A stretch of 64,000 nucleotides of DNA, from positions 771,179-835,178 of the forward strand of contig JAVLUZ010000507.1 of assembly GCA_036768485.1 (NCBI GenBank), in the 5' to 3' direction. Positions 27,201 to 45,829 of this stretch are shown one piece after another. The position numbers were made by a program, and so were the translations under genes. The notes beneath the pieces were generated by a model. The model was given only the letters and a program-made list of their open reading frames with translations. It did not search any database and was not told where the DNA came from. The stretch is from Mermis nigrescens (lineage: Eukaryota > Nematoda > Enoplea > Mermithida > Mermithidae). The stretch's first letter is position 1. Every line of letters starts with the position of its first letter.

Positions 27201-30200
27201 GGCTGGAAGTTGGACGGGGCGAACCGTCAGCCATTGCCCAGGTATGCTCTAAACTCTTTTAGAAATGGATAAAGGACTTTAGAAAATTCAGACTTTTTCA
27301 AAACGTGCAAACAAATGCGAAAAAGGCGAGGAAAACATTTCACATTAAATATGACAAATATTAAGGAAGCTACACAGCTTTAAAGTTTGCAAATCAACAG
27401 TGCTTCTGCTTAAGAGTAGGCGATTTCGACATCTATCCTGCAAGTCGGTCATCTCTTCTCTACATTTTTCTCAGGCTTAGTCTTAGTTTTAGATAAAATA
27501 TAATCTTAGACAGCTTACGTTGGTATTACTCCCGCTTAGGTCGGAAAAATGGGCGTTTGAACCAATGTTCGCATACCCGAATTTGGATAGGTACATAACT
27601 GATCCAGAAAACTTTTCATCCCCCTCCGCAACAATTTTTTCACCCCCCCCAGAATTAGAGATTTTTTGAAAGTTCCCAAAACTTCTCTAAAATTTGAAGA
27701 AAAGATGCTTTATAAGCGTTTTCAGCCATTTATTTGCTTAAAAGTGGCAAAGTTTCGGCGCTTCGCGCCATTATACTCATATTTTGACTATATTTTGTTC
27801 AATTTGTTACGACTTTTTTGGTTTTTTTCGATGCTCTAGAAAGATGGAGTATCGTCAGAAACGCTTAAAACGATGTTTTTAACGTGTACCTACCATTTTT
27901 GGACCAGAAAAGGCATTTTATAATTTCACCCTACCCCAGAATTTAAATGCAGTGCATGTATGGATAGATACATATTAAATATATACAGGCAGGCCCGTAT
28001 CCAGAGAGGGGGTAGGGAGGCACGTGTTCCACCCACCCCAAAACGAAATATGAGAATGATTTTTTTCTCAAAAGACGGGGGGATAATGTCCCTCCCGAAA
28101 CGAAATATGAGAATGATTTTTTAAAATCTTCCTTATATTTCGTTTAGGGGGAGGAAACACGTACCCCTTCTGTATTCTCCCCTTCGTTTTTTAGTTGAAA
28201 ATCGCAAAAAAAATTTGGCGCTTCGCACCGAATTTCACAATTACAATTAGAGTCTAAATAGTCCCAAGCGCGCGTTTTGAAAACTCCAATTTTAGTCTTC
28301 ATACAAGCTAAGGCGTATTTCGAGTCTAGGTCTTCATTTTGCACAAACATTATGCAGAAAATGAGGTTTGTTCAAGAGGGTGTCCATTAAATTCTCACCA
28401 TACATGTAACAGAAGGGATGGGGGATCCCTCCCACCCAAAGTCGGATGTCCCCCATCCCCAAAACCAGTAAATTTTTGACCCCCCCCCACGGTTTTTCTT
28501 TGTATTCGGCAAAGATTTTTCGCGATGTACAAAGACTTTTGGGAACCGTCTTTGTACATGTACAAAGATTTTTTGGAAGATAAAAACTGCAAAAAAGGTT
28601 CGAAATTCGCTGAAATTCTCGGTGCTCCGCGCCGAAATGAGCAATTGTGTGTTCTATATATCTTTATAATTTCAGAAATTGCATTTTGAAAGGAAAAATG
28701 CCAAATTTTTCGGCGCTTCGCGCCGTTTTGAGACGATTATTACTGATTTTTGCCCTCAGAAACCTAGAAATTGCTAAAATACGTAACCAAAGGTCGAACA
28801 ACTCTGTTCTTGTCACACTAAAATCGCTACTGTACCATATTATAGTACCCAAAAATTTGTGTGTACGAAATGTACAAAGACTTTTAGGTACCATCTTTAT
28901 ACATGTACAAACGGACCTTGAACAAAAAAAAAACACTGCCCCCCCTATTTTCGGAAAAAATCGAATTTTTTGGCTGTTTTTTGGCATTTTTTGGCCATTT
29001 TCGACCGAAAATTATAGGTCATTTACCCCCCCCTCCACCCTAAAATGGCCAGAACCCCACTCTGGCATACGTGTAGCAGGTTCACATATGTATTAAGATA
29101 GTCATATTATAAAGGCGTATGTATGCAGTTCGTAGCACCCGATAAAGTGGAAGAAAGTCGGTGCCAACCGGATTCGAAATGTGGACCTCTTGCTCGAAAG
29201 TCCAGAACCTTAACCAATCGACTAGCGCTGGTTCATTTCGATAAAGAATGCAAGGTATTCGTAATGTTTTGCATTGGTTTACCTGCTTAGTAGGCTTAGT
29301 CTCAGTATCATGGACTGACCAAAATGTTGGTGCCAGCGTTTAAAATAAGCCTGAGTAATGGGATGCGACGAGCGGAGCGAGCAAAGCGAAGCGACGCGAG
29401 TCGCATCCCATTATTTAGGCTTATTTTAAACGCTGGCACCAACATTTCGGTCAGTCACCACATGAATCTGCAGAAACAATCCGAGCACTGTCTTATTTGT
29501 TTTTCGAACCAGTTAGGTGGCAGCTTTCACCGAATACTACGTGTTGTATACATACTTATAAAGTGGCTATCTTAATACATATGTGAACCAGCTACACCAA
29601 TGCGGCAGTAATTATTTGCAGTCAACTACAGGTAATATAGCACACAATGTAAAATTATATGCAGTCAAAAACCAGCGGCCTAGACTGCAGGTAATATAGC
29701 ACACAATGTGAAATTATATGCAGTCAAAAACCAGCGGCCTAGAAGACTGCAGGTAATATAGCACACAACGTAAAATTATATGCAGTCAAAAACCAGCGGC
29801 CTAGACTGCAGGAAATATAGCACACAATATAAAATTATATGCAGTCAAAAACCAGCGGCCTAGACTGCAGGTAATATAGCACACAAGGTAAAATTATATG
29901 CAGTCAAAAACCAGCGGCCTAGACTGCAGGGTGATATGGAAAGCTGGCGCTTCGCTCGCATTTTAACCTGTAGTAGATGGTTTTAGAAGGCACTTTTATT
30001 TGAGATGGTCTAGCAGATTTGCTTCCTCAATAGGGAATGTTTTCTGCGCTACATGGGTAGCAGCTTCAATAGCTGCCCATCCACCCATTAGCGTATTTTG
30101 ATGGGCCAGCGTAAGCTCTGGTCCTGCATGATAGATATTGCGTAACTGTTGCTATTCTTGCCCTCATTCTGGGGAATTGTTTTACTTTAGTGGAAATAAA

Positions 30201-33200
30201 ATTATACAGCAGATACATATGATACTGGAAAAAATGGTGTGTGGCGACAGCAATTGCTTGCGGATTCAGATTGGTGCCAGACATGGGCTAAGCCTAAGGC
30301 ATAAATGGATCGAAAATTGCTCCACTCGCTCCGCAATTTTCGCTCCATTTATCTCAGGCTTAGCCCATGCGCTGGCATCAATGTGAATGCACATAACTAA
30401 GCCTGGTAACCCCGCTCAGTCACAGTCCCCCAATGCTTTGGAGACTAATCCGAAACATTCCCAAATGCTTTTCGGAATCCTTGTTTCACATTATTGAATA
30501 AACTTTGAAGCATTTTATTTCCACTAAAATAGAAGAATTCCCCAAAATGAAGACAAGAACAGCAACAGCTACTAACTATCTATCATGCAGGACCAGAGCT
30601 TATGCTGGCCCATCAAAATGCGCTAATGGGTGACTGGGCAGCTATTGAAGCTGCTACCCATGCAGCGCAAAAAACTTTCCCTATTGAGGAAGCGAATCTG
30701 CCAGACCATCTCAAATAAAAGTGCCTTCTAAAACAATCTACTAGAAGTTAAAAGGCGAGCGAAGTGCCAGCTTCCCATATCAATAAGCATTCAACTTGGC
30801 TGCATATAAAATCACATTGTGTGCCATATTATCTTCAGTCTAGGCCGATGGTTTTTGACTGCATATAATTTTACTTTGTGTGCTATATTACTTGCAGTCT
30901 AGGCCGCTGGTTTTTGACTGCATAATTATACATTGTGTGCTACATTACTTGCAGTTGACTGCAAATAATTACTACCCACCAACACCGTTTTTTCCATTTT
31001 TTTGGTCATTTTGTCAACCAAAATTTTAGGAAATGGAAAAAATTTTTTGGGAAAATTTTTGTAATCTTAATGTCATGTAAAAACACCATACGCTACTACA
31101 GTAATCTATTGACACATGATGCGCACGTTAGAACATCAGGAATTCATCGCATATATTGAAGGGACATAACATCTGAAGGGAACCGGTCCGAGCTCAGCAC
31201 GTAAAAACTGCTAAGTGAGGAGTCAGCGCTGATAAAGGCTATTGGGTTCGCCCAATAGCACCGGTTTTATTAATGCGTGCGCGCGCAATAATACACAGCT
31301 GCACAATCCGCAAGACAGCTCAGTCCGAGCTGGTGACTATAAACGAACATATGGTTAGCCCGTTAGGTGGTCCAAGTATATTGACCTAAGGATTATTGAT
31401 TGAACTCGACTGACGTGCACTGAGACACGCGGAGTATATTACTAATTGGATATTATATATTATTATTATATTATTACATATATTATTACTAATTATTATT
31501 ATTAATTATTACAGATATTATTACTAATTGGATATTATTATATTACTAATTGGATATTATTAGTATATTATTATATATTACTAATTGGATATTATTATAT
31601 TATGATATTACGGAGTGACCCAAGTGAATATATTAATGATTATTATATATTGACCACTACCGGGCGTGACATATCTGGTGACAGAAGTGGGATAGTCACA
31701 TATCTTGTGGAGTCTGTAGCAGCTATTATTGATCGGGGACGATCAAAGCAAAGGAGGGAGGTGTCATGTTACAGTGGTTGCCATGAAAGATGACGCGCCA
31801 TCATCCTCAGAATTATAATGGATGGTGCGCAGCGAGCACACGTTACGTCCATCATGCGCCATCATCTCTTTTTTCTATTCAGCGCCATTAACCTCCATCA
31901 TCCCGTTAATCTGGCGATGCAGACGGCGCATTTAGCTATTAATAGCGCCAACAAGGAAGCGCGCACGTGAATGCTGGCGCGCTTCCTTCTTGTTGGTGCT
32001 ATTAATAGCTAAATTGCGCCGTCCGCATCACCAGATTAGCGGGATGATGGAGGTTAATGGCGCTGAATAGAAAAAGAGATGATGGCGCATGATGGATGTA
32101 ACGCGGCGCTCGCCACGCACCATCCATTATAATTCTGAGGATGATGGCGCGTCATCTTTCATGGCGACCACTGTAAAACACAATACGCTACTACAGTAAT
32201 CTATTGACACATGATGCGCATGTTAGAACATCAGGAATTCATCGCATATATTGAAGGGACATAACATCTGAAGGGAACCGGTCCGAGCTCAACACGTAAA
32301 AACTGCTAAGTGAGGAGTCAGCGCTGATAAAGGCTATTGGGTTCGCCCTGGGTTCGCCCAATAGCACCGGTTTTATTAATGCGTAAGCGCGCAATAATAC
32401 ACAGCTGCACAGTCCTCAAGACAGCTCAGTCCGAGCCGGTGACTATAAACGAACATATGGTCAGCCCGTTAGGTGGTCCAAGTATATTGACCTAAGGATT
32501 ATTGATTGAACTCGACTGACATGCACTGAGACACGCGGAGTATATTACTAATTGAATATGATTACGGGGCTCGACAGACGTACAATACGCGGAGTGACCC
32601 AAGTAAATATATTAATGATTATTATATATTGACCACTACCGGGCGTGACATTAAAAATGCGTTTTAGAGAGGTAAAACTTCAAAAAATTTCGGCGCTTCG
32701 CGCCTAATTGATTTAATTCTGACTTGTTATTAATCTTTAAGCCGCGCCGCACCAATTGCAGCATTTTTGTCGACAATCTGATCTAGAACTTCACTACGAT
32801 TGAAAATCCTTCTCTTCTGCACGGATTTGGTCAGTTTTTGCCATGCAAAAATGTGTTTTAGAGGTGAAACTACAAAAATGTTCGGCGCTTCACGCCGAAT
32901 TGATTGAATTCTTACTTACTAGTAATCTTTAAGCCGCGCCGCGCCAATTGCAGTATTTTTATGAAAGAAAGAAAGAAAGAAATAGTTTATTGCGACAGAG
33001 ACGGAATTAAAACAATACAAATTCGGTCAAATTAAAAAAAGAATGAATCATACACTGAAATGTCGTCAATGCAATGAAATAATCAAAAACCTGTGCAAGG
33101 ACTATAAAGGCGGTTTGCACTTACTTATAGTCTGAGGTAAAACTAATTTTCTCTAAACGACTGCTGAAGGAGGGAAAGTTTGGGGCTTTTACAACTTCTT

Positions 33201-36200
33201 CTGGCAAATTATTCCAAAGAGGAGGGAGTCTATTTGCAAAACAATACAATTTCAAATTTTAGCGAGATTTAGGTATTTTTAGCTTTACCGAGTTAACTGA
33301 TCGAGTGATGCCATTACACACCGTAAACAACTCGTTAAAATCGATGTCTTTAAGACCATGGTAAATTTTATAGGCCATCGATAGATCATGACGGACTCGA
33401 CGTAACTGAAGTGAGTCTAATTTAAGAAAATCTGATCGTTATCGACAATCTGGTCATAGGAATTCACTACGATTGAAAATCATTACCTTCTGCACGGATT
33501 TGGTTAGTTTTTGTAATGCAAAAATGCGTTTTAGAGAGCTAAAATTCCAAAATTTTCTGGCGCTTCGTGCCATTTGATAAATTATAGTTTTAATTGTCAA
33601 AAGCGACTTCAGATTTGGCTAAAATGCTTTATTGAAGGAAGGAAATTCAAGTTTAAACAGAAATAACGTAGGCATTGGTGTAGCTGGTTCACATATGTAT
33701 TAAGATAGCCACATTATAGGTACGTATACAGCAAGTAGTATCCGGTGAAAGCTGCCACCTAACTGGTTTGATTTGAGTCAAGTCGAAAACAAATAAGGCA
33801 GTCATCAGATTTTTCCCGTAGATTCATGTGACTGACCAAAATGTTGGTGCCAGCGTTTAAAATAAGCCTAAGTATGTAATTGGATGCAACTCGCGTCGCT
33901 CGCTACGCTCGCTCCGCTCGTTGCATCCCATTACTCAGGCTTATTTTAAACGCTGGCACCAACATTTTGGTCAGTCCATGATACTAAGCCTAAGCCTAAT
34001 CAGCTGGTAAACCAGCAAAACATCACGAATACCTTGCAATCTTTATCGAAAGTAACCAGCGTTAGTCGATTGGTTATGGTTCTGAACTTTAGAGCAAGGA
34101 GTCCACGTTTCGAATCCGACTGCCAGCAACTTTCTCTCGTTTCCTCAGATGCTATCGATCGCACACATACGCCCTTATAATATGACTATGTTAATACATA
34201 TGTGAACCAGCTACACGAATGCCATAACGTATACTGATCGTGATATTTCTTGCAGAGTGCGAAATTTTTGTACAAAAAGTGCATCAAACACCGCTATTGC
34301 TTGTGTACATAGGATTTTCTACCTAAAAAACACTAATTTTTCAACCCAGCCGCTCTATTTTTAATGTTTTTAGACCTCCAGAAAAAAGTCGGAAAAGGTG
34401 GAAAAAATATTTTGGGTCTGGTCTATAATGTCAACCAAATCGCTGGGAAAAAACAGTACCCACCAATGCCCCCTCCCCCAATTTCGAGCCCTTACAAGTA
34501 TGATTCTCACCATATTAAGGATGTCTGGGTAGCAAAATTTACAAAATGTTAAGCTCTAGTGATCGTAAGACTTCTTTTTTAATCCATCCTTCGGTCCCCC
34601 CTAACGTTTTGAAAAAAATTTTGATCGTCGTGCCCCGGAAACGGCAGTAATTATTTGCAGTCAACTGCAGGTAATATAGCACACAATGTAAAATTATATG
34701 CAGTCAAAAACCAGCGGCCTAGACTGCAGGCAATATAGCACACAATGTAAAATTATATGCAGTCAAAAACCAGCGGCCTAGACTGCAGGCAATATAGCAC
34801 ACAATGTAAAATTATATGCAGTCAACAACCAGTGGCTCAGACTGCTGGCAATCTAGCACACAACGTAAAATTATATGCAGTCAAAAACCAGTGGCCTTGA
34901 CTGCAGGCAATATAGCACACAACGTAAAATTATATGCAGTCAAAAACCAGCGGCCTAGACTGCAGGCAATATAGCACACAATGTGATATTATATGCAGTC
35001 AAGTTGAATGCTTATCGATATGGGAAGCTGGCGCTCTGCTCGCATTTCAACCTGTAGTAGATGGTTTTAGCAGGCACTTTTATTTGAGATGGTCTGGCAG
35101 ATTTGCTTCCTCATTAGATAATATTTTCTTGCGCTGCATGGGTAGCACATTCAATTGCTGCCCAGTCACCCATTAGCGCATGTTGATGGGCCAGCTTAAG
35201 CTCTGGGGCATACATACATACACACATATTTGATCAATCCGGAATAAATTTATAACTACATACATACACAGACTAGCACTATCACAGCCAATTAATCTTA
35301 TGATGTCAGTTGTATACCATGTCTCCCTAGGGGGCAAAGCTATAACATCGCCTATGTTATAACATAGGCGGAGGGGCTTAGAATCTGCTCCCTGGCTTTT
35401 CTCAGGGAGCAATGCTGCAGCATAGGTTGTGTTGTAGCATAGTGGCCTGACCGGACCTGCCCGGGGAGGGGACCCATGCAAGCCCAGGGCCAAGGGAGGG
35501 GCAAATTTCCAGGGGGGAATTTCCCTGGAGGAAAAATTGAAAGAGCTATAATTCAAGAACCAGCAGCCAGATCGGACTAAAAATTTCATAGTCTGTTAAG
35601 TATATGTTAGGTATGCTACGTACAAAATTTTAGCGCGCAGCCTACAGGATACCAGCATTACTTTACACTTTTGCATAATTCAAAAAGCAATGGCCGGATT
35701 TTGTTCAAATTTTCATGACATGATGTATATAGGCGAGTCATGCTATGCACAGAATTTCAGTGCGCAGCCTACAGTATACCAGTTTACTTTACATTTTCTC
35801 ATTTGGTACTATAACTTTAGAAATAGAGGGCGGATTGGGCTGAAATTTTCATAGTAGGGTGGGTTTATGTTGCATGTGTTATCTTATTGTTATCAACATG
35901 TAATCTACAGTATGCCGATTTTAGTTTACACTTCCTCATATAGGAACGTAAATCAAGAATTAATGGCTGGGTTTTGTTCAGATTTTCAGAATATGATGTA
36001 TATAGGCGAGGCAAGCTATGCATAGAATTTTAGCGCGCAGCCTACAGTATACCAATTTACTTTACACTTGCTCAAATAGTGATATAACTTTAGAAATAGA
36101 GGGCGGATTGGGTTAAAATTTTCATAGTAGGGTGGGTTCATGTTGCATGCTTATCCTATTGTTATCAGCATGTAATCTACAGTATGCCGATTTTAGTTTA

Positions 36201-39200
36201 CACTTCCTCATATAGCACCATATTTCAAGAACCAATGCTTGGATTTTGTTCAGATTTTCAGGATATGATGTATATAGGCGAGTCATGCTATGCACATAAT
36301 TTCAGTGCGCAGCCTACAGTATACCAGTTTACTTTACACTTTCTCATTTGGTACTATAACTTTAGAAATAGAGGGCGGATTGGGCTGAAATTTTCATAGT
36401 AGGGTAGGTTTATGTTGCATGTGTTATCTTATTGTTATCAACATGTAATCTACAGTATGCCGATTTTACTTTACACTTCCTCATATAGCACCATATTTAA
36501 AGAACCAATGCTGTGATTTTGTTCAAATTGTTAGGATATGATGTATATAGGCAAGGCATGCTACATATGGAATTTCTGCGCGCAGCCTACAGTACACCAG
36601 TTTACTTTACACTTTCTCATATAGCACTATTTTTCAAGAACTAGAGGGCAGATTTTGCTCAAATTTTCAGAGTACGTTAGGTTTACGTAGGTATGCTATG
36701 TACAAAATTTTAGCGCACAACCTACAGTATGCTGATTTTTTTACACTGTCTTTACAATGCTTAATTTTTTACCAGTACTTGACTAATGATGCCATTAGGG
36801 GTTATTTTTGCCCAAAAATACGCAACCAGTATAGGCGAACATTGCTCAAATTTAATTATCATGCAATTTTGAGCTTCTCAAAGTTTATCAGAAAATGCCT
36901 GAAAAAGGGCGATCTTTGCCTGCTGTTCAACCTGTGGAAATTTTTAAGCCCTGAAGCTAGGTTTTACTTTACAAACTTCCACACAAAATTCATTAATGAA
37001 AACATAACTTCATCCATGTCATCAGTATTGATCTAAAAATTTGCAAAGTTTGGAATATTTTTTGTAAAGCTTAAAATTTTTTTTTGTAAAATTTGGAATA
37101 TTTTTTGTAAACCTTAAAAATTTTTTTAGTAAAATTAGGAATATTTTTTGTAAAGTTTGGAATATTTTTTGTAAAGTTTGGAAATTTTTTTGTAAAATTT
37201 GGAATTTATTTTACATGCTTAAGCATAGTACTTTTGCAGAGTTTGGAATATTTTTTGTAAAGTTAGGAATATTTTTTGTAAAATTTGGAATATTTCTTGT
37301 AAAGTTTGGAATATTTTTTGTAAAATTTGGAAAATTTTTTGTAAAGTTTGAAATATTATGTATCTAATCTGCATTTCTCAAGCATTGTTGAAACTATTTC
37401 ATATGCTCTGTGCAACTCATGCTCCCGTTTTGCACCTTTAAGGATCAATTTTCCACTGGTGAACAGCAAAAATGTTATATTTCTGAATTTGTATATTAAG
37501 CCAGGAAACAGTTCTACTTCATACATGCATTTTCTTTCCACCAGCTCACAAAATTTGCAAAGATTAATGCGGAACCCTAAATTTGCCGAACCTGCAAACA
37601 TATTGGTTTCACCTTTAAATCATCACTTCTAGCATTTAATGCATCTACAGCTGTTTTTATAGCACTTTCACCAGCTTTCACTGTTTTAGCTCCAACACAT
37701 ACAATTTTACCCGATTCGAAAATCACTAATGTTGCCTGAGGTAGTCAAAATACAATGCCTGGAAATCTCAAATAATTGTATTGTGCAGTCTTTGCTTTGC
37801 TTGTATTTTATATTGTATTTTGTATTTTATTTTTTATTGTATTTTTTATTGTATTGTATTTTACATTTTATTTTTTTGTTTGTTTCAGGACCAACAAGTC
37901 AGGCAAAACAACATTTGTCAAGCGATTAATTGAGAATAGAGCATGCCTGATTGATACTAAAATCAAAAGATTTGGTGGTGCTTCATGGAAAACCAGCCTC
38001 TTCATAAAAAATTAAATGATGTTTTATTCATAGAAGGGCTTCCTGATTTTAATTACCTAAAACAATTTAGTCATATGCCTCAACTTTTGATTCTCGATGA
38101 TCTTATGCAACAGAGCAAGGGTACTGCTCGGATTGTGCAACTTTTTACAAGGACTTGTCATCATTGAAACATTAGCATTATACACATTGTTCAAAACGCG
38201 TTCTTTGATGGTCTGAGAACTTCACACATCCACTCTGATTACATAGTTTTATTCAAACACCCTGCTGATCAGCTACAGGCACAAATGCTTTCCAGACAGC
38301 TCTATCCTGCCAACGCTAAATATTTTCCACAAGCTTATTCTGATGCTACTTCTCAGTCACCTGGTTACCTTTTAATTGATCTAACTCAAAATGCTAGAGA
38401 TGAGATCAGGCTTAAAACAAATATTTTTAGCAGGCATCTAACTGTTTATATGCAGAAAGTTATAAATACTAGTAGAGATATTGTGACAAAAAAGGAAAAA
38501 ATGGGTAAGGAACGATTAACACGCAATATTCATTGTTTACATCTCCTAAGTCGGGCAAAAAACCTCAAAGAACTGCTATTATAAATACTGCAAGCAAAGA
38601 TCAAATCCTTTGTCTCTGTGACTGTGCAAACATTTTTCTGAATTGTAATATTCCTTTTGATAAAAAGGATATAAATAAACTTCACTTCAAAGATATAAGA
38701 ATCAAATAAGATACCTGGCAAACAAAAAGCAGGCGACTACAAAACAAAAGAAAGACATTATAATACGGCAAGGTGGTTTTCTTCCTCTTTTACTTACTCC
38801 CATACTTACAATAGGTTTAGTCCGCTTGCTGATTTCAGCAGGTATACAAATAATTTTTTCAGTATGTTTCATTTACTACCAACTATTGCATCAGCTAGCA
38901 AACTACCAGCTATTGTAAGTATGGGAGTAAGTGAAAGAGGAAGAAAACCACCTTCCTGTATTATAATATATTTCTTTTGTTTTGTAGTCACTTGCTTATT
39001 GTTTGCCAGGTATCTTATTTGATTCTGATATCTTCGAAGTTTATTCATATCCTTTTTATCAAAAGGAATATTACCATTCAGAAAGTTGTTTGCACAGTCA
39101 CAGAGACAAAGGATTTGATCCTTGCTAGCAGTGTTTATAATAGCGGTTCTTTGAGGTTTTTTTGCTTGACTTAGGAGATGTAAACAACCAATATTGTGTG

Positions 39201-42200
39201 TTAATCGTTCTTTACCCATTTTTCCCTTTTTTGTCACAATATCTCCACTAGTATTTATAGATTTCTGCATATAAAGAGTTGGATGCCTGCTAAAAATATT
39301 TGTTTCAAGCCTGAGCTCATCTCTAGCATTTTGAGTTAGATCAATCAAAAGGTAACCATGTGGCTGAGAAGTAGAATCAGAATAAGCTTGTGGAAAATAT
39401 TTAGTGTTGGCAGGATAGAGCTGTCTGGAAAGCATTTGTGCCTGTAGCTGATCAGCAGGGTGTTTGAATAAAACTATATAATCAGAGTTGATGCGTGAAG
39501 TTCTCAGACCATGAAAGAAAATGTTTTGAACAATGTGTATAATGCTAATGTTTCATTGATGACAACTCCTTGTAAAAAGTTGCACAATCTGGGCATTACC
39601 CTTGCTCTGTTGCATAAGATCATCAAGAATCAAAAGTTGAGGCATATGACTAAATTGTTTTAGGTAATTGAAATCAGGAAGCCCTTCTATGAATAAAACA
39701 TCATTCGATTTTTTATAAAGAGGCTGGTTTTCCGTGAAGCACCACCAAATCTTTTTGATTTTAGTATCAATCAGGCATGCTCTATTCTCAATTAATCGCT
39801 TGACAAATGTTGTTTTGCCTGACTTTGTTGGTCCTGAAACAAGGCAGGTAAAAGGATGTTGGAATATCATGGTCTTAGGTATAAATATCAATTATCAAGA
39901 AGTATTTTTAGAAAAATGGTAACTATACAAAATATTTTACTGACTACAGCACTACCCAATCAAAGAAATCTACCAGAAATTACCAAAGACTGCATAATAC
40001 AATTATTTGAGATTTCCAGGAATTGTATTTGGACTGCCTCAGGCAACATTAGTGAATTTCGAATCGGGTAAAATTGTATGTGCTGGAGCTAAAACAGTGA
40101 AAGATGGTGAAAGTGCTATAAAAGCAGCTGTAGATGCATTAAATGCTAGAAGTGATGATTTAAAGGTGAAACCCCATATGTTTGCAGGTTTGGCAAATTT
40201 AGGGTTCCGCATTAATCTTTGCAAATTTTATGAGCTGGTGAAAAGAAAAATGCATGTATGAAGTAGAACTGTTTCCTGGCTTAATATACAAATTCAGAAA
40301 TATAAAATTTTTGCTCTTCACCTGCGGAAAATTGATCCTTACAGGTGCAAAACAGGAGAATGAGTTGTACAGAGCATATAAAATAGTTTCATAATGCTTG
40401 AAAAATGCAGATTAGATACATAATATTTCAAACTTTACAAAAAATTTCCCGAATTTTACAAATAATATTCCAAATTTCACAAGGAATATTTCAAATTTTA
40501 TAAAAAATATTCCAAACTTTACAAAAAATATTCCAAACTTTGCAAAAGTACTATGCTTAAGCATGTAAAATTAATTCCAAATTTTACAAAAAAATTTCCA
40601 AACTTTACAAAAAATATTCCAAATTTTACAAAAAGTATTCCAAATTTTACAAAAAATTTTCTAAGCTCAACAAAAAAAATTCCAAACTTTGCAAATTTTT
40701 AGATCAATACTGATGACATGGATGAAGTTATGTTTTCATTAATGAATTTTGTGTGAAGGTTTGTAAAGTAAAACCTAGCTTCAGGGCTTAAAAATTTTCA
40801 CAAGTTGAAGAGCAGGCAAAGATCGCCCTTTTTCAGGTATTTTCTGATAAACTTTGAGAAGCTCAAAATTGCATGATAATTAAATTTGACAATGTTCGCG
40901 TATACTGGTTGCTTATTTTTGGGCAAAAATAACTCCTAATGGCATCATTAGACAAGTACTAGTAAAAAATTAAGCATTGTAAAGACAGTGTAAAAAAATC
41001 AGCATACTGTAGGTTGTGCGCTAAAATTTTGTACATAGCATACCTAAGTAAACCTACCGTACTTTGAAAATTTGAGCCAAATCTGCCCTCTAGTTCTTGA
41101 AATATAGTGCTATATGAGAAAGTGTAAAGTAAACCGGTGTACTATAGGCTGCGCGCTGAAATTCCATATATAGCATACCTTGCCTATATACATCATATCC
41201 TAACAATTTGAACAAAATCACAGCATTGGTTCTTTAAATAGGGTGCTATATGAGGAAGTGTAAAGTAAAATCCGCATACTGTAGATTACATGCTGATAAC
41301 AATAAGATGATACATACAACATAAACCCACCCTACTATGAAAATTTTAACCAAATCCGCCCTCTATTTCTAAGGTTATAGTAATATTTGAGCAAGTGTAA
41401 AGTAAATTGGTATACTGTAGGCTGCGCGCTGAAATTCTATGCATAGCATGCCTCGCCTCTATACATCATATCCTGAAAATCTTAACAAAATCCAAGCATT
41501 GGTTCTTGAAATATGGTGCTATATGAGGATGTGTAAACTAAAATTGGCATACTGTAGATTACATGCTGATAACAATAGGATAACAATGCAACATGAACCC
41601 ACCCTACTATGAAACTTTTAACCCAATCCGCCCTCTATTTCTAAAATTATATCACTATTTGAGCAAGTGTAAAGTAAATTGGTATACTGTAGGCTGCGCG
41701 CTAAAATTATGAACCCACCCTACTATGAAAGTTTTAACCCAATCCGCCCTCTATTTCTAAAGTTATATCACTATTTGAGCAAGTGTAAAGCAAATTGGTA
41801 TACTGTAGGCTGCGCGCTAAAATTCTATGCATAGCATGCCTCGCCTATATACATCATTTCCTGAAAATCTGAACAAAATCCAGCCATTGGTTCTTGATTT
41901 ACGTCCCTATATGAGGAAGTGTAAACTAAAATCGGCATACTGTAGATTACATGTTGATAACAATAAGATAACATGCAACATAAACCCACCCTACTATGAA
42001 AATTTCAGCCCAATCCGCCCTCTATTTCTAAAGTTATAGTACCAAATGAGAAAGTGTAAAGTAAACTGGTATACTGTAGGCTGCGCACTGAATTTCTGTG
42101 CATAGCATGACTCGCCTATATACATCATGTCATGAAAATTTGAACAGAATCCGGCCATTGCTTCTTGAATTATGCAAAAGTGTAAAGTAATGCTGGTATA

Positions 42201-45200
42201 CTGTAGGTTGTGCGCTAAAATTTTGTACGTAGCATACCTAACATATACTTAACAGACTCTGAAATTTTTTGTCCGATCTGGCTACTGGTCCTTGAATTAT
42301 AGCTCTTTCAATTTTCCCCCAGGGAAATTCCCCCCCCTGGAAATTTGCCCCTCCCTTGGCCCTGGGCTTGCATGCGCCCCCTCCCCGGGCAGGTCCGGGC
42401 AGGCCCCTATGCTACAACACAACCTATGCTGCAGCATTGCTCCCTGAGAAAAGCCAGGGAGCAGATTCTGAGCCCCTCCGTCTATGCTAAAACATAGGCG
42501 ATGTTATAGCTTTGCCCCCTAGGGAGACATGGTATACAACGGACATCATAAGATTAATTGGCTGTGATAGTGCTAGTCTGTGTATGTATGTAGTTATAAA
42601 TTTATTCAGGATTGATCAAATATGTGTGTATGTATGTATGCCCCAGAGCTTAAGCTGGCCCATCAACATGCGCTAATGGGTGACTGGGCAGCTATTGAGT
42701 GTGCTACCCATGCAGCGCAAAAAAATATTTTCTAATGAGGAAGCAAATCTGAGAAGAAAGAAAGAAGAAAGAAAATTTTATTACTAATACCAACAGTTAA
42801 AATACGAAATGACAAGATATATAATAAATGCAATTACGAATTAGTAAAGGGACATGCGAGTCAATGGAATGACAAGTTTTACGCGCGCCCCACAAGATAT
42901 CTAGATAAATCAAAGTTTGCTAATCTAGATTTAAATATGTTTAGGTTAGGGGAAGAAACAATGAAGTCAGGAAGATCGTTCCAAACTGTGATGTATTTGT
43001 AAAAGAAATCAAACTTTTCTAAATTAGAATGTACAGTAGGTATGACTAATTTAAATCTATTAATGCTACGGGTAATATTATGATTAAATACAAAAAAATC
43101 ATCAGCTTCCAAACATGATTTATGACAAATAATTTGATACATCATACACAGACAAATCTGCAAGCGTCTTAATTCAAGTCTGCACAATTTAAGTTGTGTT
43201 AAACGATCCTCGTAAGAAAAAATATTATTATAGCCAAAAATATATTTACGTGAATCTACGTTGAACAGCTTCCAATCTATCTATATCCTTAAGATAAGAG
43301 GGGTTCCATATACTGCAACAATACTCTAATAAAGGTCTAACATAACAACTATAAGCTTTAACAAGATTACCTTTATCACGCGAAAAAAATGATTTGCGTA
43401 TTAAAATACATCTAAAGAAAGCTTTTTTAATCAAAGAATTATAATGTTCCTTAAATTTTAAATTTCGAGGAATCAAAACTCCTAAATCACGGACAAACGG
43501 ATCACTAGAAATAATTTCCCCATTTAGTCTATAAACAGCTTTTTGATTATTATTACCCAAATATAGAACTTGACTTTTGGTTCGAGAAATAGGTAAATCC
43601 CATGCAATTGCCCAGTCAATAATCTTATCTAAATCAGACTGTAATAATTTACAGTTACGACTAATATTGAAAATTTTGATATCATCTGCGAACATATAAA
43701 CCGTACTACAAATATTATCACATATATCATTTATAAAAATCGAAAAGAGCGTAGGTCCAAGGACACTTCCTTGGACGACACCGCTGGTAACAGGCACATA
43801 ATCTGAAAAAGACTGATTAACGCGAACACATTGGGAACGATTAAACAAATAGGCCTTTAACCATGCATACAAATTACCGTTTATTCCATATCCGTTTAAC
43901 TTAATAAGAAGTTTTTCCATATTTACTTTATCAAAAGCTTTAGAGAAATCTAAATATATTATATCAACAGTTTCTTTTTTAGCTAACGACTGAATCCATG
44001 AAAATTTACACTTTAACAATTGTGTTTCACAAGATTTATTCTTTTGAAAACCAAATTGAAAAGGAGATATTAGTTTATTAACCTTAAGAAAGTCTAACAA
44101 TTGACTATTAATAATTCTTTCCATAATTTTGGCAATAGAACAACAAAGAGAAACGGGCCTGTAATTATCCACTAATGCTGGATCCCCCTTCTTTAATATT
44201 GGAATAACATGTGCCATGCTCCAAAGCTCGGGAATATTTCCAGACAGAAAAGATACAGTGAAAATACTAACTAACGGCTTTATCATTTGAAACGACAATT
44301 TTTTAATAAAAAGATTACATATGCCATCGGGGCCAACTGCAATAGACGTATTTAGATGGTTAATGGCTTCCAATACGCGATCCTCACTAAAAATAATGTC
44401 AGAAAGCGAAAAATCACAGCGCTTCTGAAAAAGAAAATTCGCGTTAGTAATGTCACTAGAAAACACTGAAGCGAAATAATCATTAAAAATGTTAGCCTTG
44501 CGTAATGAATCGGTTATAACATTATTATCAGAAAATGTTAGAGGAGGAATTTCACTGCGACTTTTTAACCTATTATTTACAAAAGTATAGAAAGCTTTAG
44601 GATTATTATTCTTGAGCAATTTGTTTTCTTGAGAAGAGAAATAATTATGAATAGTTCTACGTAGAGCCTTACAATGATTTCGATATTTAACTTTAGTTCC
44701 TGGAGTTTTACACCTTTTATACTTATCCCATAGAGAACGTTTTTTAAGAAATAATTTATGTAAGCTTTTAGGGTATTTAAATTTTAATTTAGCCCTAAAA
44801 GTAGGTACAAAACTAAAAAATAAGAGGATTTAATATACTTAAAAAAACATTATACATGTCATTAACTGTTGAGCATGTAGAAAAAATGTCAGGCCAAGAA
44901 ACAGAGGATAAAAAGTAGCTATACTCTCGTAGTCCGCTTTATTGAAATTTAAGCTAGGTTTATCTCCATCTTGAAAAGTTCTAGTTAAAATTTCAAAAGA
45001 AATCGAATTATGGTCGCTTGTTGAAAAAGGAGGAAGAACCTGGATATTAAAAACGTTATATGCAGCAAATCTCAAATTAAAGTGCCTTCTAAAACCATCT
45101 ACTACAATTTGAAATGCGAGCAAAGCGCCAGCTTCCCATATCAATAAGCATTCAACTTGACAGCATATAATATCACATTGTGTGTTATATTGCCTGCAGT

Positions 45201-45630
45201 CTAAACCGCTGGTTTTTGACTGCATATAATTTTACGTTGTGTGCTATATTGCCTGCAGTCTAGGCCACTGGTTTTTGACGGCATATAATTTTTCATTGTG
45301 TGCTATATTGCCTGCAGTCTGAGCCACTGGTTTTTGACTGCATATAATTTTACATTGTGTGCTATATTGCCTGCAGTCTAGGCCGCTGGTTTTTGACTGC
45401 ATATAATTTTACATTGTGTGCTATATTGCCTGCAGTCTAGGCCGCTGGTTTTTGACTGCATATAATTTTACATTGTGTGCTATATTACCTGCAGTTGACT
45501 GCAAATAATTACTGCCCCCGGAAACGAAATCCTGGGCATAGGCCTAGCTACTTCACTAGCACAGAACCCCTAATTTACTCACCTCTGTTCGTCCATTCAC
45601 CGACGACGTATAAACTTTAACGGCACACAT
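13514..45630 (-). CDS. Sh3beta: SH3BGR-family (Sh3beta-like) protein with acidic C-terminus, five exons
   Basis: Coding exons on the minus strand are 45630-45583, 26024-25833, 22111-22031, 17853-17773 and 14053-13514 (942 nt, 313 aa). All introns are GT/AG and all junctions are phase 0. The N-terminus MCAVKVYTSSVNGRTE, then VKKRVQRVLFVLQSKRIEHE, GLPQIFVDEACCG and GYEDFEQAIENEELYSFLKL match the thioredoxin-like SH3BGR domain, including the conserved cis-Pro region LPQIF; there is no CxxC. The remaining 206 residues are charged, Glu/Lys/Gln-rich and hold three repeats of a DAAWxRR motif, which I do not know from other family members. SH3BGR proteins are small cytosolic glutaredoxin-like proteins of uncertain biochemical role. 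The first intron (19,558 bp) carries the foldback, TRIM and LINE insertions. Confidence 0.92.
14081..14251. mobile_element. Family B MITE
   Basis: Termini CAGGCACGTATCT and AGCTACGTGCCTG. The flanks aatgggac/aataggac match 7 of 8. It lies only 27 bp upstream of the 3' splice site of SH3BGR exon 5. Confidence 0.8.
14340..15180. repeat. Repeats with 'CCAAAAATTGGAGGTCATTC'-type core
   Basis: Segments near 14340-14600 and 14990-15180 share blocks (GGCCAAAAATTAGAGGTCA, CCCCCAA) with segments at 19830-19975, 28395-28500, 28930-29060, 54700-54870 and 55400-55580. This is a dispersed family whose termini I could not fix. Confidence 0.5.
16484..16701 (+). mobile_element. Family A hAT-like MITE
   Basis: From CATACGTGGGCAGCC to CCCAGGTGT, in SH3BGR intron 4. 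Flanks tttgttac/ctgttatc are only similar. Confidence 0.78.
17773..17853 (-). CDS. Sh3beta: SH3BGR-like exon 4
   Basis: Acceptor TTTTTTCAG. Encodes ESVALNGHTENGELGDEKK and MEDRDESA (27 codons). The donor GTGGGT is weak, which may allow exon skipping or alternative use; skipping would keep the frame. Confidence 0.82.
18001..18222 (-). mobile_element. Family A MITE, truncated
   Basis: Reverse copy from CACACCTGGGC; its GCCCACCTATG end is missing. Nested within 17918-19088. Confidence 0.72.
18345..18782. mobile_element. Palindromic TA-flanked MITE
   Basis: Near-perfect long inverted repeat with ends CAGTGCTCGCCATGAAAG and CTTTCATGGCGAGCAGTG, flanked by TA on both sides. Same family as 31772-32173 (shared GCGCGCACGTGAA core and 'aatttagctattaatag'). 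Confidence 0.85.
18783..19010 (+). mobile_element. Family A MITE
   Basis: Begins TAGGTGGGCGG directly at the border of the palindromic MITE and ends CCCAGTTGTGG. The outermost CA has been lost. Confidence 0.72.
19983..20215 (-). mobile_element. Family A hAT-like MITE
   Basis: Reverse copy, CATACCTGGGCGTG to GCCACCCACCTATG. Flanks gcctccac/gcccccac match 7 of 8. Confidence 0.85.
21224..21253. repeat. (GA)n microsatellite
   Basis: About 15 consecutive GA units in SH3BGR intron 3. Confidence 0.9.
22031..22111 (-). CDS. Sh3beta: SH3BGR-like exon 3
   Basis: Acceptor TTCTTCTAG, donor AAG|GTACAC, 27 codons. Encodes GYEDFEQAIENEELYSFLKL, the last helix of the fold, then KRKSEEK. Confidence 0.93.
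22271..22533 (+). mobile_element. Family A MITE, diverged
   Basis: Contains the core and a C/G-rich tail ending CCCACGTGTG. The start is degenerate (GGGCGGGCAGCACC). It lies in intron 2, about 160 bp from exon 3. Confidence 0.7.
22547..25062. mobile_element. Candidate 2.5 kb element with GC-rich ends
   Basis: GC-rich stretches at 22547-22680 (CAGAGCCGGGGCGGG) and 24905-25062 (ending GACTCTG) share GGGGCGGG-type blocks in opposite orientation. A hAT-like element is possible. No transposase frame is recognised and the flanks match over only 4 bp. Confidence 0.35.
23700..23880. repeat. Dispersed repeat shared with 56285-56600
   Basis: Shares 'aaattggtctatctcgg', 'agctcgcaaaaac' and 'caaaattatggaaaatactt' blocks plus a GGCGCGAAGCGCCGAAA hairpin with the copy in the how gene. 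Confidence 0.65.
25060..25190. repeat. Dispersed repeat shared with 26320-26460
   Basis: Both contain 'ggtactgtc.ggcgattttgagc' and 'ggattagtac.ttta' blocks in the same order. The family is unnamed. Confidence 0.55.
25833..26024 (-). CDS. Sh3beta: SH3BGR-like exon 2 (thioredoxin-like core)
   Basis: Acceptor TTTTTGAG, donor GGG|GTAACT, 64 codons. Holds VKKRVQRVLFVLQSKRIEHE, DLAQSHNNELDFLKTHC, a Pro-rich stretch and GLPQIFVDEACCG. Confidence 0.93.
26320..26460. repeat. Second copy of the 25060-25190 repeat
   Basis: Similar over its whole length to the copy at 25060-25190, including the block 'ggcgattttgagc'. Confidence 0.55.
26858..27246. mobile_element. Family E hAT-like MITE (TIR ACCTGGGCAATG) with internal minisatellite
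   Basis: Ends CACAGCTGGGCAATG and CATTGCCCAGGTATG, with exact 8-bp duplication ctctaaac (26850-26857, 27247-27254). Inside, 27062-27190 is a tandem array of a roughly 21-bp unit (GACCCACCTTTTTCAG...). Confidence 0.85.
27062..27190. repeat. 21-bp minisatellite
   Basis: About six imperfect units of GACCCACCTTTTTCAG plus 4-5 variable bases. Read on the minus strand they give GGSxxEK repeats, but this is not a gene. Confidence 0.75.
29165..29236 (-). repeat. tRNA-like module inside TIR element
   Basis: Minus strand reads GATTGGTTAAGG (box A-like) then ATTTCGAATCCGG (box B-like). The same module occurs at 34055-34130 on the plus strand in the sister element. It looks tRNA-derived, as in a SINE. 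Confidence 0.5.
29325..29455. repeat. Near-perfect 130-bp hairpin
   Basis: The arm GTTGGTGCCAGCGTTTAAAA and its inverse meet at a centre rich in GCGAGCGGAGCGAGC. The equivalent hairpin in the sister element is at 33838-33977. Confidence 0.85.
29604..30976. mobile_element. Small foldback element
   Basis: Left end GGCAGTAATTATTTGCAG, right end its inverse (one change). The left array has about five copies of the 59-bp repeat and the right array about three. Inner arms carry 'agatggttttagaaggcac' and 'ctctggtcctgcatgatag'. The centre holds another hairpin (about 30270-30385). Flanks caccaatgc/caccaacac match 7 of 9. It shares its ends and inner arms with the large element 34643-45516 but has no gene cargo. 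Confidence 0.82.
31071..31671 (+). repeat. LTR 1 of TRIM, with ATT expansion
   Basis: 601 bp against about 485 bp for LTR2 without its MITE. The difference is mostly a (TATTATTA)-rich expansion at 31440-31610. Confidence 0.88.
31672..31761 (+). other. TRIM internal region (PBS and PPT)
   Basis: Begins TATCTGGTGACAGAAGTGGG, whose TGG suggests pairing to a tRNA 3' CCA, and ends with the polypurine tract. Confidence 0.7.
31762..32650 (+). repeat. LTR 2 of TRIM, interrupted by MITE
   Basis: The first bases TGTCATGT, then a TA and the palindromic MITE 31772-32173, then the rest of the LTR from 32176. Apart from the MITE it is close to LTR1. Confidence 0.88.
31772..32173. mobile_element. Palindromic TA-flanked MITE inside LTR2
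   Basis: Ends CAGTGGTTGCCATGAAAG and CTTTCATGGCGACCACTG, TA duplications at 31770-31771 and 32174-32175, near-perfect palindrome. Its presence in only one LTR shows it is younger than the TRIM insertion. Confidence 0.9.
32690..32950. repeat. Tandem pair of repeats with GCGC hairpins
   Basis: Blocks 'cggcgcttcgcgcc', 'taatctttaagccgcgccgc' and 'ccaattgcag' appear twice in order (32690-32770 and 32880-32955). A third related segment resumes after a LINE tail at about 33440-33600. Confidence 0.6.
32960..33440 (-). mobile_element. LINE 3' fragment (5'-truncated)
   Basis: Read on the minus strand it has the C-terminal tail of a non-LTR reverse transcriptase (LRRVRHDLSMAYKI, DIDFNELFTV, WNNLPEEVV) with in-frame decay, then a 3' end in (GAAA)n (reads as GAAAGAAAG on the plus strand). 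It interrupts the repeat flanking it on both sides. Confidence 0.78.
33671..34223. mobile_element. Intact TIR element with tRNA-like module and hairpin
   Basis: Termini GGCATTGGTGTAGCTGG and CCAGCTACACGAATGCC, exact 8-bp duplication ataacgta (33663-33670, 34224-34231). The inside holds a 140-bp hairpin (33838-33977) and a tRNA-like module (34055-34130, box B-like GTTTCGAATCC). The 8-bp duplication fits hAT or P type transposition. Confidence 0.85.
34055..34130 (+). repeat. tRNA-like module
   Basis: Reads CGATTGGTTATGG then CGTTTCGAATCCG at tRNA-like spacing. It is the counterpart of 29165-29236. Confidence 0.5.
34643..35010. repeat. Left terminal array, 59-bp units
   Basis: About six units; GACTGCAGG starts recur at 34722, 34781 and onward every 59 bp. 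Units differ by a few substitutions. Confidence 0.9.
35330..35530. repeat. GC-rich block of left palindrome arm
   Basis: Contains short hairpins (AACATCGCCTATGTTATAAC; GCTCCCTGG...CAGGGAGC). The mirror block is at about 42300-42540. Confidence 0.7.
35640..36720. repeat. Tandem 250-310 bp repeats, left arm
   Basis: At least four units built around GCGCAGCCTACAGTATACC, 'tttactttacacttt.ctca' and 'agagggcggattgggct'. The mirror array is at 41030-42240. Confidence 0.82.
37040..37350. repeat. 21-bp tandem repeat, left arm
   Basis: About twelve units of GGAATATTTTTTGTAAAGTTT with variants. Mirrored at 40430-40700. Confidence 0.85.
37356..37770 (-). pseudogene. TBP-like gene, left-arm copy
   Basis: Minus-strand frames in two pieces. 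The outer piece (37601-37356) is an open frame with the second TBP repeat: NLGFRINLCKFCEL, ELFPGLIYKF, FTSGKLILKGAK. The upstream piece (about 37770-37600, another frame) has the end of the first repeat: ATLVIFESGKIVC.GAK. TBP is built from two such imperfect repeats, each with a FPG...SGKI.C.GAK signature; here each is seen, in order. The gene is broken by at least one frameshift and its start is not clear. TBP binds TATA DNA to start transcription; what this copy did is unknown. Confidence 0.8.
37780..37885. repeat. Low-complexity (TATTGTATTTT)n insertion
   Basis: An AT-rich run between the divergent TBP-like and ATPase remains, present only in the left arm, so it arose after the palindrome formed. 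Confidence 0.7.
37889..38480 (+). pseudogene. Maverick-type packaging ATPase, left-arm copy, broken
   Basis: Recognisable are the P-loop tail (SGKTTFVKRLIENRACLID), the Walker B region (MPQLLILDDLMQQS) and the tail ATSQSPGYLLIDLTQNARDE typical of A32/FtsK-like ATPases of Mavericks and adintoviruses. Relative to the right-arm copy it has a one-base deletion in the P-loop, another frame change near 38000 and a TGA at about 38165. Such ATPases pump DNA into capsids. This copy cannot make a full protein. Confidence 0.82.
38500..38815 (+). pseudogene. Small basic protein remnant, left-arm copy
   Basis: Follows the ATPase remnant and reads in pieces (MGKERLTRNIHCLHLL, then a frameshift, NTASKDQILCLCDCAN). 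It mirrors the better-preserved right-arm copy. Confidence 0.65.
38816..38905. other. Centre of the palindrome
   Basis: About 90 bp of non-mirrored sequence separates the two arms; the arms begin to match at GGTGGTTTTCTTCCTCTTT and its inverse. Confidence 0.7.
38869..39270 (-). pseudogene. Small basic protein with hydrophobic tail, right-arm copy
   Basis: The open frame 39435-38869 starts within the ATPase tail and runs into a second part: MGKERLTHNIGCLHLL, a Lys/Arg-rich middle, then QEGGFLPLSLTPIL and a short hydrophobic C-terminus. In Mavericks and adintoviruses a small basic protein with this kind of GGFLP tail is encoded near the ATPase and is thought to be a capsid-associated or core protein. 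Here it is fused in frame to the ATPase tail; a native start at the MGKER methionine is likely. Confidence 0.68.
39271..39891 (-). pseudogene. Maverick-type packaging ATPase, right-arm copy, one in-frame stop
   Basis: Starts with a Met at 39891. The P-loop GPTKSGKT is complete at residues 20-27, and LLILDDLMQQ is the Walker B. A single TGA about 39550 interrupts an otherwise continuous frame, after which HIVQN..., LFKHPADQLQAQMLSRQLYP and GYLLIDLTQNARDELRL follow. This is the better-preserved copy. The same TGA occurs in the left-arm copy, so it predates the duplication or is read through. Confidence 0.85.
39916..40394 (+). pseudogene. TBP-like gene, right-arm copy
   Basis: Three consecutive frame pieces. 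The first is TIQNILLTTALPNQRNLPEI. The second (40007-40261) is the first-repeat signature FPGIVFGLPQATLVNFESGK and the linker into NLGFRINLCKF. The third is the second repeat ELFPGLIYKF...GKLILTGAK, up to a TAA near 40394. Together they cover a whole TBP core of about 160 residues with two frameshifts. It diverges from the packaging ATPase; only about 25 bp separate their starts. Confidence 0.8.
40430..40700. repeat. 21-bp tandem repeat, right arm
   Basis: Mirror of 37040-37350 (units like AAACTTTACAAAAAATATTC). Confidence 0.85.
41030..42240. repeat. Tandem 250-310 bp repeats, right arm
   Basis: Mirror of 35640-36720, with about one extra partial unit (a duplicated segment at 41700-41820). 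Confidence 0.8.
42751..45063 (-). mobile_element. LINE (non-LTR retrotransposon), 5'-truncated
   Basis: Inserted in the right arm of the foldback element. Direct repeat agcaaatct at 42742-42750 and 45064-45072 is a probable target duplication, though the flanking arm also lost a few bases. It contains the end of the APE endonuclease (STSDHNSISFEI, about 45030-44990), the RT frame 44619-43246 and the 3' tail in (GAAAGAA)n. Jockey/CR1-like by motif style. Confidence 0.88.
43246..44619 (-). CDS. LINE reverse transcriptase frame (partial)
   Basis: A 457-residue open frame with RT blocks in order: VGPDGICNLFIKKL, PVSLCCSIAKIMERII, ISPFQFGFQKNKSCETQLL, YLDFSKAFDKVN, GVVQGSVLGPTLFSIFIND and the catalytic FADDIKIF. 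It ends at QRRFT by a one-base insertion; the C-terminal domain continues in another frame (43187-42879, LELRRLQICLCMMYQIICH). The endonuclease part is cut off, so the copy is dead but young enough to keep a long frame. Confidence 0.9.
   Translation of the reverse strand: MLKNNNPKAFYTFVNNRLKSRSEIPPLTFSDNNVITDSLRKANIFNDYFASVFSSDITNANFLFQKRCDFSLSDIIFSEDRVLEAINHLNTSIAVGPDGICNLFIKKLSFQMIKPLVSIFTVSFLSGNIPELWSMAHVIPILKKGDPALVDNYRPVSLCCSIAKIMERIINSQLLDFLKVNKLISPFQFGFQKNKSCETQLLKCKFSWIQSLAKKETVDIIYLDFSKAFDKVNMEKLLIKLNGYGINGNLYAWLKAYLFNRSQCVRVNQSFSDYVPVTSGVVQGSVLGPTLFSIFINDICDNICSTVYMFADDIKIFNISRNCKLLQSDLDKIIDWAIAWDLPISRTKSQVLYLGNNNQKAVYRLNGEIISSDPFVRDLGVLIPRNLKFKEHYNSLIKKAFFRCILIRKSFFSRDKGNLVKAYSCYVRPLLEYCCSIWNPSYLKDIDRLEAVQRRFT
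45130..45516. repeat. Right terminal array, 59-bp units (inverted)
   Basis: Mirror of the left array; CTGCAGTC recurs every 59-60 bp up to the terminus. Confidence 0.9.
45583..45630 (-). CDS. Sh3beta: SH3BGR-like exon 1
   Basis: Encodes MCAVKVYTSSVNGRTE and ends at donor GAG|GTGAGT. It joins in phase 0 to VKKRVQRV of exon 2, the same exon border as in family members. CpG-richer sequence upstream (about 45640-45720) is a likely 5' UTR. Confidence 0.88.
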
Positions 45631-45829
45631 GCTTCTTTAATTATTATGGCGCGACGAAGATGAACGCGCATCCGCAACGACTGAAGAACTACGGCCTATC
45701 GTCGTGAGTGCGATTATTTGAGTCTACAGTACAAACAGAAAATTGTTTTATTATTGCTAACTTAATCACTTGCCTAATTTTTAGAGCTTAACTCTCATAT
45801 TGATTCAGCACACTCCGAGAAGATTTTCA

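Follow-up and report, generated by a model that had tools for sequence, protein, structure and literature searches.

How does a transposon come to carry the genes of a virus? The question is raised by a 64,000-nucleotide stretch of the genome of the nematode Mermis nigrescens (contig JAVLUZ010000507.1, positions 771,179 to 835,178; here called the window, the numbering of which is used throughout). An original prediction, made from the letters of this stretch, had placed at 34643-45516 a foldback transposon with virus-like packaging genes and a TATA-binding protein (TBP) homologue, and had regarded it as a chimera with a Maverick-derived cassette. The coordinates are right, the mobile element being a single unit at 34643-45516, and the chimera is borne out by junctions, ends and cargo that are shared at many loci. 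We suggest that the element is most probably a non-autonomous foldback-type DNA transposon, the long arms of which were made from the end of a Maverick/adinto-like provirus. The arms are composed of a foldback end and provirus sequence, they meet tail to tail at an inverted repeat of 6 bp, and the same junction, deletion and stop codon recur at many sites.

Foldback ends and a viral block in both arms

Nearly the whole element is an inverted repeat, with a left arm at 34643-38813 and a right arm at 38910-45516. The viral block, which consists of the genes for TBP, a packaging ATPase and a small basic protein with the tail GGFLP, is thus present in both arms, and this had been overlooked by the original prediction. 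The arms pair over three segments: 34643-35090 with 45069-45516 at 96%, 35098-36751 with 41117-42751 at 83%, and 36026-38814 with 38910-41708 at 90% identity. The order in each arm is the foldback end (564 bp), a 101-bp block, the viral terminus, the viral end region and then TBP-ATPase-GGFLP. The right arm also has a long interspersed nuclear element (LINE), with a match to RVT_1 (PF00078) at E 3.5e-34. The features are collected in Table 1.

Both tips have arrays of a 59-bp repeat, each with 5.7 units and 93% matches in Tandem Repeats Finder (34664-35002 and 45157-45495). The termini are mirror images (GGCAGTAATTATTTGCAGT.../...AATTACTGCC), and the target-site duplication CCCGGAAAC lies on either side of the element with 9/9 bases identical. 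Thus, the foldback/MULE-type (Mutator-like element) ends, the 59-bp arrays and the perfect 9-bp duplication are all present as predicted. Foldback-type transposons are characterized by long inverted repeats with internal tandem arrays, by duplications of about 9 bp at varied targets, and by multi-copy families that include short members of differing interior, and all of these are found here. Judged only by its end structure and 9-bp duplications, the element would be a transposon of the foldback type (FB/MULE). There is a precedent in nematodes: in the Mutator/Foldback family Tm1 of root-knot nematodes, ends of this kind with 9-bp duplications are associated with a Mutator-type transposase (PMC3169594, in the part of the report available). 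Like our element, Tm1 has composite tandem-repeat inverted ends, short members resembling miniature inverted-repeat transposable elements, and duplications of 8-10 bp, mostly 9 bp, in 45 of 53 elements. Unlike it, Tm1 has tandem units of mostly 14 bp, its groups have a histone-hairpin motif or a Phantom-type Mutator transposase, and no viral cargo is noted in the available part of that report.

The viral genes are damaged. Neither arm has an uninterrupted ATPase or TBP gene, and the GGFLP frame is broken in the left arm and open over a stretch in the right. Two pieces of the right-arm TBP, in more than one frame, match Pfam PF00352 (E 1.5e-08 and 2.3e-09). A 227-aa piece that covers the last part of the ATPase together with the GGFLP protein matches 40 proteins of a large protein database with up to 74% identity; many of these have a precomputed Pox_A32 assignment, and one has Adeno_IVa2 in addition. 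The GGFLP protein is known as a separate gene from a stand-alone relative, P0011, and likewise from the contig L001. Both the Maverick/adintovirus-type packaging ATPase and the GGFLP-tailed protein had been proposed originally and are supported by these relatives. Profile searches had been expected to recognize TBP and the A32-type ATPase alike. TBP is recognized in this way; of the ATPase pieces taken alone, the right-arm P-loop piece gives only Pfam matches below their cut-offs, and the 227-aa piece has no useful Pfam match. Nothing useful was returned by scans of viral contigs with the ATPase piece and with an alignment (A1), by phage records, or by a protein search with the broken TBP piece.

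Table 1 Features of the composite element and of a short relative in the window
Feature	Position	Strand	Basis or remark
Short foldback element, ends same as composite, without viral block	29604..30976	+	flanking 9-mers 7/9
Left target-site duplication CCCGGAAAC	34634..34642		flank comparison
Left foldback end: terminal motif and 59-bp array (5.7 units)	34643..35004	+	common to short copy 29604-30976
Foldback subterminal segment, 202 bp	35005..35206	+	homology to two short foldback copies ends at 35206
101-bp block between foldback end and viral terminus	35207..35307	+	alignment among composite copies
Viral end region from inferred viral terminus (AGTTGTATACC...), 136/273-bp repeats	35308..36760	+	provirus ends L036:2845, L039:4405
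Deletion of ~3 kb (integrase and further open reading frames)	36760/36779		comparison with L033
End of small viral open reading frame ('mid'; beside integrase in provirus)	36779..37039	-	91% to L033
Viral 21-bp repeat spacer	37040..37370		present too in proviruses L032-L035
Left-arm TBP pseudogene	37372..37790	-	L001 TBP, E 4.4e-12
Left-arm ATPase fragment (in-frame TGA) and broken GGFLP frame	37888..38813	+	frames, queries from L001-L003
Palindrome centre, CAATAG/CTATTG junction	38805..38915		right arm goes ~95 bp further into next viral gene
Right-arm GGFLP small basic protein, open stretch downstream of ATPase stop	38869..39215	-	frames
Right-arm A32-like packaging ATPase, TGA at 39550-39552	39216..39870	-	frames, homologous proteins
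Right-arm TBP pseudogene, frame breaks	39916..40420	+	PF00352
Right-arm 21-bp repeat spacer	40422..40695		Tandem Repeats Finder
Right-arm copy of small viral open reading frame end	40696..40955	+	91.5% to L033 through 40955
Right-arm viral end region to viral terminus	40956..42541	-	inverted-repeat and terminus alignment
Right-arm 101-bp block	42542..42642	-	alignment
Right foldback subterminal segment, part before LINE	42643..42751	-	alignment
Later LINE insertion; reverse transcriptase frame 43246-44829	42752..45068	-	AGCAAATCT at both edges
Right foldback subterminal segment, part after LINE	45069..45154	-	alignment
Right 59-bp array and terminus	45155..45516	-	Tandem Repeats Finder, frames
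Right target-site duplication CCCGGAAAC	45517..45525		flank comparison

Donor proviruses and junctions

The genes of the block are also found on other contigs. L001, a 3.4-kb contig filed under a bacterial metagenome-assembled genome (MAG), has TBP divergent from the ATPase, an unnamed open reading frame (ORF) between them and then GGFLP, and this is the gene order of the element. The single contig L002 (13.4 kb) carries PolB, ATPase, GGFLP, an integrase with a chromodomain, a protease, TBP and dUTPase, the TBP gene being apart from that of the ATPase. Because L001 and L002 carry these genes, the block is viral and was not put together by the transposon. The viral origin of the packaging genes therefore stands as predicted, but they are dead passengers, and the viral share is larger than had been supposed, since the greater part of the inner arm derives from the end region of the provirus itself. 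When the window and the composite sequences L004-L031 were searched with queries from L001-L003, ATPase, TBP and GGFLP were the sole ones that matched, and integrase, capsid-like, protease and PolB queries had no match (E up to 1e-3). This agrees with the original observation that neither integrase nor polymerase is visible in the element.

The donor is a Maverick/adinto-like provirus family with an rve-type integrase and an A32-like ATPase. In L032, TBP is followed by ATPase and GGFLP in one open frame (345 aa), two more ORFs and a capsid candidate, which matches ORF 8848 of L002 with E 4.5e-49; L032 is 93% identical to the element over 38809-40806. L033 extends in the other direction, with TBP, a 21-bp array, the 'mid' ORF, integrase, further ORFs and then a homologue of the outer arm. 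Its integrase matches that of L002 (E 6.5e-72) as well as rve (1.4e-14) and Chromo (8.9e-08), and L045 has the same layout, with the TBP side and the integrase; L034 and L035 are likewise provirus pieces of this side. The ATPase of the donor family is 51% identical to that of L001 (E 2.7e-73), and in the ATPase tree both arms of the element group together (93/85), and with L032 (100/99). A lineage at 83% is represented by L035/L036 on the integrase side and by L039/L040 on the capsid/protease side, and a terminal repeat is common to both sides (99.8% over 545 bp, L039 versus L035). The capsid candidate of L039 has a weak match to DJR-like_dom (0.00079, 19.2 bits versus a cut-off of 27) and no telling match among solved structures or PHROGs, and the protease candidate has a weak match to Peptidase_C5 (0.00044, 20.4 bits versus 21.3). 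The 262-aa, 165-aa and 194-aa ORFs of L039 have no useful Pfam match. In L002, the relative of the protease passes the Pfam cut-off and that of the capsid candidate has no Pfam match.

A parent with capsid and polymerase genes had been envisaged in the original prediction. The proviruses do have a capsid candidate, but L002/L003 queries detected no PolB in the viral pieces L032-L035, L039 and L040. The provirus is about 10 kb long when summed over different copies, and the 83% lineage (L035, L036, L039, L040) is seemingly only about 10 kb. With Mavericks/Polintons and adintoviruses the donor shares the chromodomain rve integrase and the A32-like ATPase, and it has a capsid candidate and a protease candidate with weak matches to the double jelly roll and to the adenovirus protease, respectively. 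It differs from them in the presence of a TBP gene and in that PolB was not seen in the pieces tested. A common genomic repeat flanks or lies near several of the proviruses (L039:4406-5400, L032:1-1039, L042:996-1287, L041:1026-1101). It is uninterrupted in L032, L041 and L042 where the virus ends in L039, and looks like an insertion site. At least 150 packaging-ATPase matches (2572 first-look candidates) are listed for the genome, in several lineages and with many frames of 335-345 aa; 23 of the listed places share one score, which suggests recent spread or duplicated assembly.

The TBP of the proviruses is full-length. In L033 it has 180 aa and matches solved TBPs over residues 6-171 with E 4.1e-29. 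The genes lie at L032:5111-5631, L033:5264-5803 (-), L001:2-613 (-) and L002:10649-11200 (-). The best solved match of the L033 protein is 1mp9 (4.1e-29), which we take to be an archaeal TBP structure, ahead of animal and yeast TBPs (about 3e-22). Named protein matches of the provirus TBP include archaeal MAGs, and these are a lead only, since the database may be mainly prokaryotic. In the PMC literature, partly judged by title, we found no description of a full-length TBP adjoining a packaging ATPase in Maverick/adinto-like proviruses, and TATA/TBP is not mentioned in the main text of the works on eukaryotic and animal DNA viruses examined. Sporadic TATA-binding proteins are described, in the available part of one report, for algal viral elements without packaging ATPase and double-jelly-roll capsid genes (PMC10675990).

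The junctions can be read against these sequences. At the outer junction, the viral end region from 35308 aligns from base 1 to the shared provirus ends at L036:2845 and L039:4405, which stop at AGTAGT.../...ACTACT, and it is 71% identical to L033 over 35288-35939. The two short foldback copies match the element only outward from 35206. The 101-bp block in between is 82.8% identical in one L027 arm and 95-100% in the other matches among the composites L004-L031, and it has no match in L032-L042 or in the two short foldback copies. The 202-bp foldback segment has no match in L032-L042 either, and the 59-bp array has none in L032-L034. As a side observation, the 101-bp block (35207-35307, 42542-42642) is better kept among composites (mostly 96-100%) than the adjoining sequence. 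At the inner junction, the viral end region runs straight into the 'mid' ORF, and the integrase and the intervening ORFs of L033 are gone. At the centre, the provirus L032 reads CTTACAATAG...97 nt...CTATTGATG; in the element, CTTACAATAG is followed by the reverse complement from CTATTG, so that the hinge is the 6-bp inverted repeat CAATAG/CTATTG.

If the 59-bp arrays were the native ends of the virus, the element would be a defective form of the virus, of the snap-back type and with an internal deletion, and it would owe its mobility to the viral integrase. Among defective DNA viruses, genomes that are palindromic and have lost internal parts are known, and the arms are collinear with the provirus ends over most of their length. 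However, the ends seen in L036 and L039 put the viral terminus 665 bp inside the element, the foldback segment and the array are absent from the proviruses listed above, and the same ends occur virus-free in the two short copies. In addition, the duplication is 9 bp, in contrast to the 5-6 bp of Mavericks. We consider this explanation very unlikely, and native viral arrays were set aside once the provirus ends were read. The element itself departs from Mavericks, Polintons and adintoviruses; it is without integrase and capsid genes, and its ends and duplications are of another kind.

Recurrence in the genome and formation of the palindrome

The genome searched comprises 523,963,438 bases in 860 contigs. 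With 34643-36000 as the query, at least 181 matches were obtained, the best 40 of 2845 candidates being scored. Of 20 stretches fetched as copies, L017 and L018 are the window's own insertion assembled again, and L015 and L016 overlap. A candidate second copy at C61:3573217 was rejected, as it is 100% identical including the flanks (33143-46426) and represents the same insertion assembled twice. In all 18 remaining stretches, arms and the viral block, complete or in part, are accompanied by at least one foldback end, and so the prediction, which depended on other copies with the same ends and cargo, is upheld. In several copies most of the viral block is gone from one arm, and L043 and L044 are of the same make as the composite element. 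Copies were picked by similarity to the window element, and the share of foldback copies with virus is not derivable from such a sample, which also includes two short virus-free copies (29604-30976 and one in L015).

Both ends could be read for 11 composite copies, counting that of the window, and 9 of these have perfect 9-bp duplications; the exceptions, both read by eye, are L023 (8 bp) and L027 (8/9 after a one-base shift). The left-end flanks vary from locus to locus. The centre junction (≤5/35 mismatches) is present in 15 distinct loci and the duplicate L017, out of 21 sequences tested, among which L016 and L018 are partial stretches not including the centre. It is extremely improbable, then, that the element is an assembly artefact of collapsed or mis-joined repeats. 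The assembly does have duplicated segments, as seen from the window insertion that was assembled twice at 100% identity, and the genome is rich in repeats (524.2 Mb, 867 scaffolds, 83.98% repeats; PMC10989877, available part). However, the chimeric junctions recur with different flanks and mostly perfect 9-bp duplications, and the read N50 of 17.8 kb given in the same part of that report exceeds the length of the element.

Within the viral block, the arms of one element differ by 6.1% (mean, n=7), and the same arms differ by 4.3% between elements. Because divergence is greater within than between elements, the palindrome is older than its spread.

We suggest the following course of events. A foldback end and a provirus end would have been brought together, either because the virus integrated into a foldback element or because a provirus was captured along with 101 bp of its flank. 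The integrase region would have been lost from the provirus part. A break between GGFLP and the next gene, fold-back on CAATAG/CTATTG and copying would then have produced a palindrome, both tips of which were formed by foldback ends. Finally, a foldback/MULE-type transposase acting in trans may have mobilized the palindrome, with the dead viral genes carried passively; it is the ends, the duplications and the copy number that point to such a transposase.

The alternative first step overlaps with a rival explanation, a Pack-MULE-like capture of the provirus end with no virus integration. MULE-type elements take up foreign segments, the 101-bp block would in that case be the genomic flank of the provirus, and the short copies have differing interiors. 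However, a single fold-back junction at the centre accounts for the symmetry without two captures, and the present data do not separate capture from integration as the first step. Capture of this kind is possible, though we lean against it.

Several observations weigh against a foldback transposon with provirus-derived arms as we have described it. No transposase or autonomous foldback element is in hand, and no transposase-directed search was made. The short copies have poor duplications of their own (7/9 and 3/9), and L025, L030 and L031 are without the centre junction. In the loose alignment to L033, similarity extends for about 20 bp outside the inferred viral terminus, the placing of which therefore depends on L036 and L039. 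With L033 and L045 the element shares only about 71-73% identity in the viral end region, in contrast to 91-93% for TBP-ATPase; the donor provirus was therefore either recombinant or outside the sample. As to age, the outer arms diverge less within an element (2.8%, n=14) than between elements (4.2%), a pattern that suggests homogenization, and for the 'mid' stretch the two values are alike (4.3%, n=13, within versus 4.2% between).

Dead cargo and its possible meaning

The TGA in the ATPase is found in 25 of the 26 arm copies that cover the site (L017 excluded), and the remaining arm has a 1-bp deletion there. The proviruses L032, L033, L034 and L045 all have tryptophan at this site (4/4). Across 50 aligned rows, some of them partial, the fractions of variable sites at codon positions 1, 2 and 3 are 0.30, 0.23 and 0.25 for the ATPase, 0.28, 0.25 and 0.31 for GGFLP, and 0.22, 0.29 and 0.18 for TBP. 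Because the codon positions vary alike, there is no sign of protein-level constraint since the spread. On the sequence evidence, the viral genes are passengers that were broken already in the founder. A working packaging cargo was considered and dropped, given the shared ATPase stop and the flat codon-position pattern.

Could the dead palindrome act as RNA? The family may be a self-spreading source of antiviral hairpin RNA, in which the dead viral palindrome seeds RNA interference against relatives of the virus; from the sequences at hand we regard this as unlikely. If it were true, transcription through any copy would give a stem of up to about 4 kb that matches viral TBP, ATPase and GGFLP, the protein frames would be free to decay since the RNA alone would matter, and both transposon and host would gain. 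For the open ATPase and GGFLP frame of L032, 606 of 1014 22-mers are in the window element and 763 (75%) across 19 loci. The corresponding numbers are 258 and 343 of 500 for the L032 TBP, and 418 and 558 of 917 for the L033 ATPase part and TBP. The next genes and capsid candidate of L032 share 0 of 2267 22-mers with the window element and 10 of 2267 across the 19 loci, the L033 integrase shares 0 of 1047, and two more distant lineages share 2-13%. Judging from the shared 22-mers, silencing of the near provirus lineage is possible.

Virus sequence on a transposon has some parallels. Teratorn, like the element, is a DNA transposon (piggyBac) fused with a DNA virus, but it is reportedly 180 kb long and largely derived from a herpesvirus, in contrast to the dead viral fragment seen here (PMC5601938, available part). 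In Bursaphelenchus xylophilus, a nodavirus-like element in a retrotransposon is likewise virus sequence on a nematode transposon, but with an RNA virus, a retrotransposon and, in the part of the report available, no palindromic DNA element (PMC5177903). Among the titles listed from the PMC literature on these elements, none names a foldback-Maverick chimera.

Elsewhere in the window, further inverted and direct repeats around the short foldback copy (29063-34224), for example 29063-29272 with 34015-34224, suggest nested transposons. One repeat, 29548-29603, stops exactly at the start of the short copy (29604). At 55941-60408 (-) there are ORFs of an animal-type STAR/KH RNA-binding gene with KH and STAR_dimer domains, which is presumably Quaking.

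The junctions, read at the level of single bases, show two unrelated mobile elements merging into one. Long inverted-repeat elements are suspected to originate from palindromes formed by fold-back, and in the present case the hinge and the offspring can be aligned with related provirus sequence that is not folded. In addition, Maverick/adinto-like proviruses of this group encode a full-length TBP beside the packaging ATPase. For a new transposon that spreads, it would be enough to have the end of a provirus, a foldback end and an inverted repeat of 6 bp.

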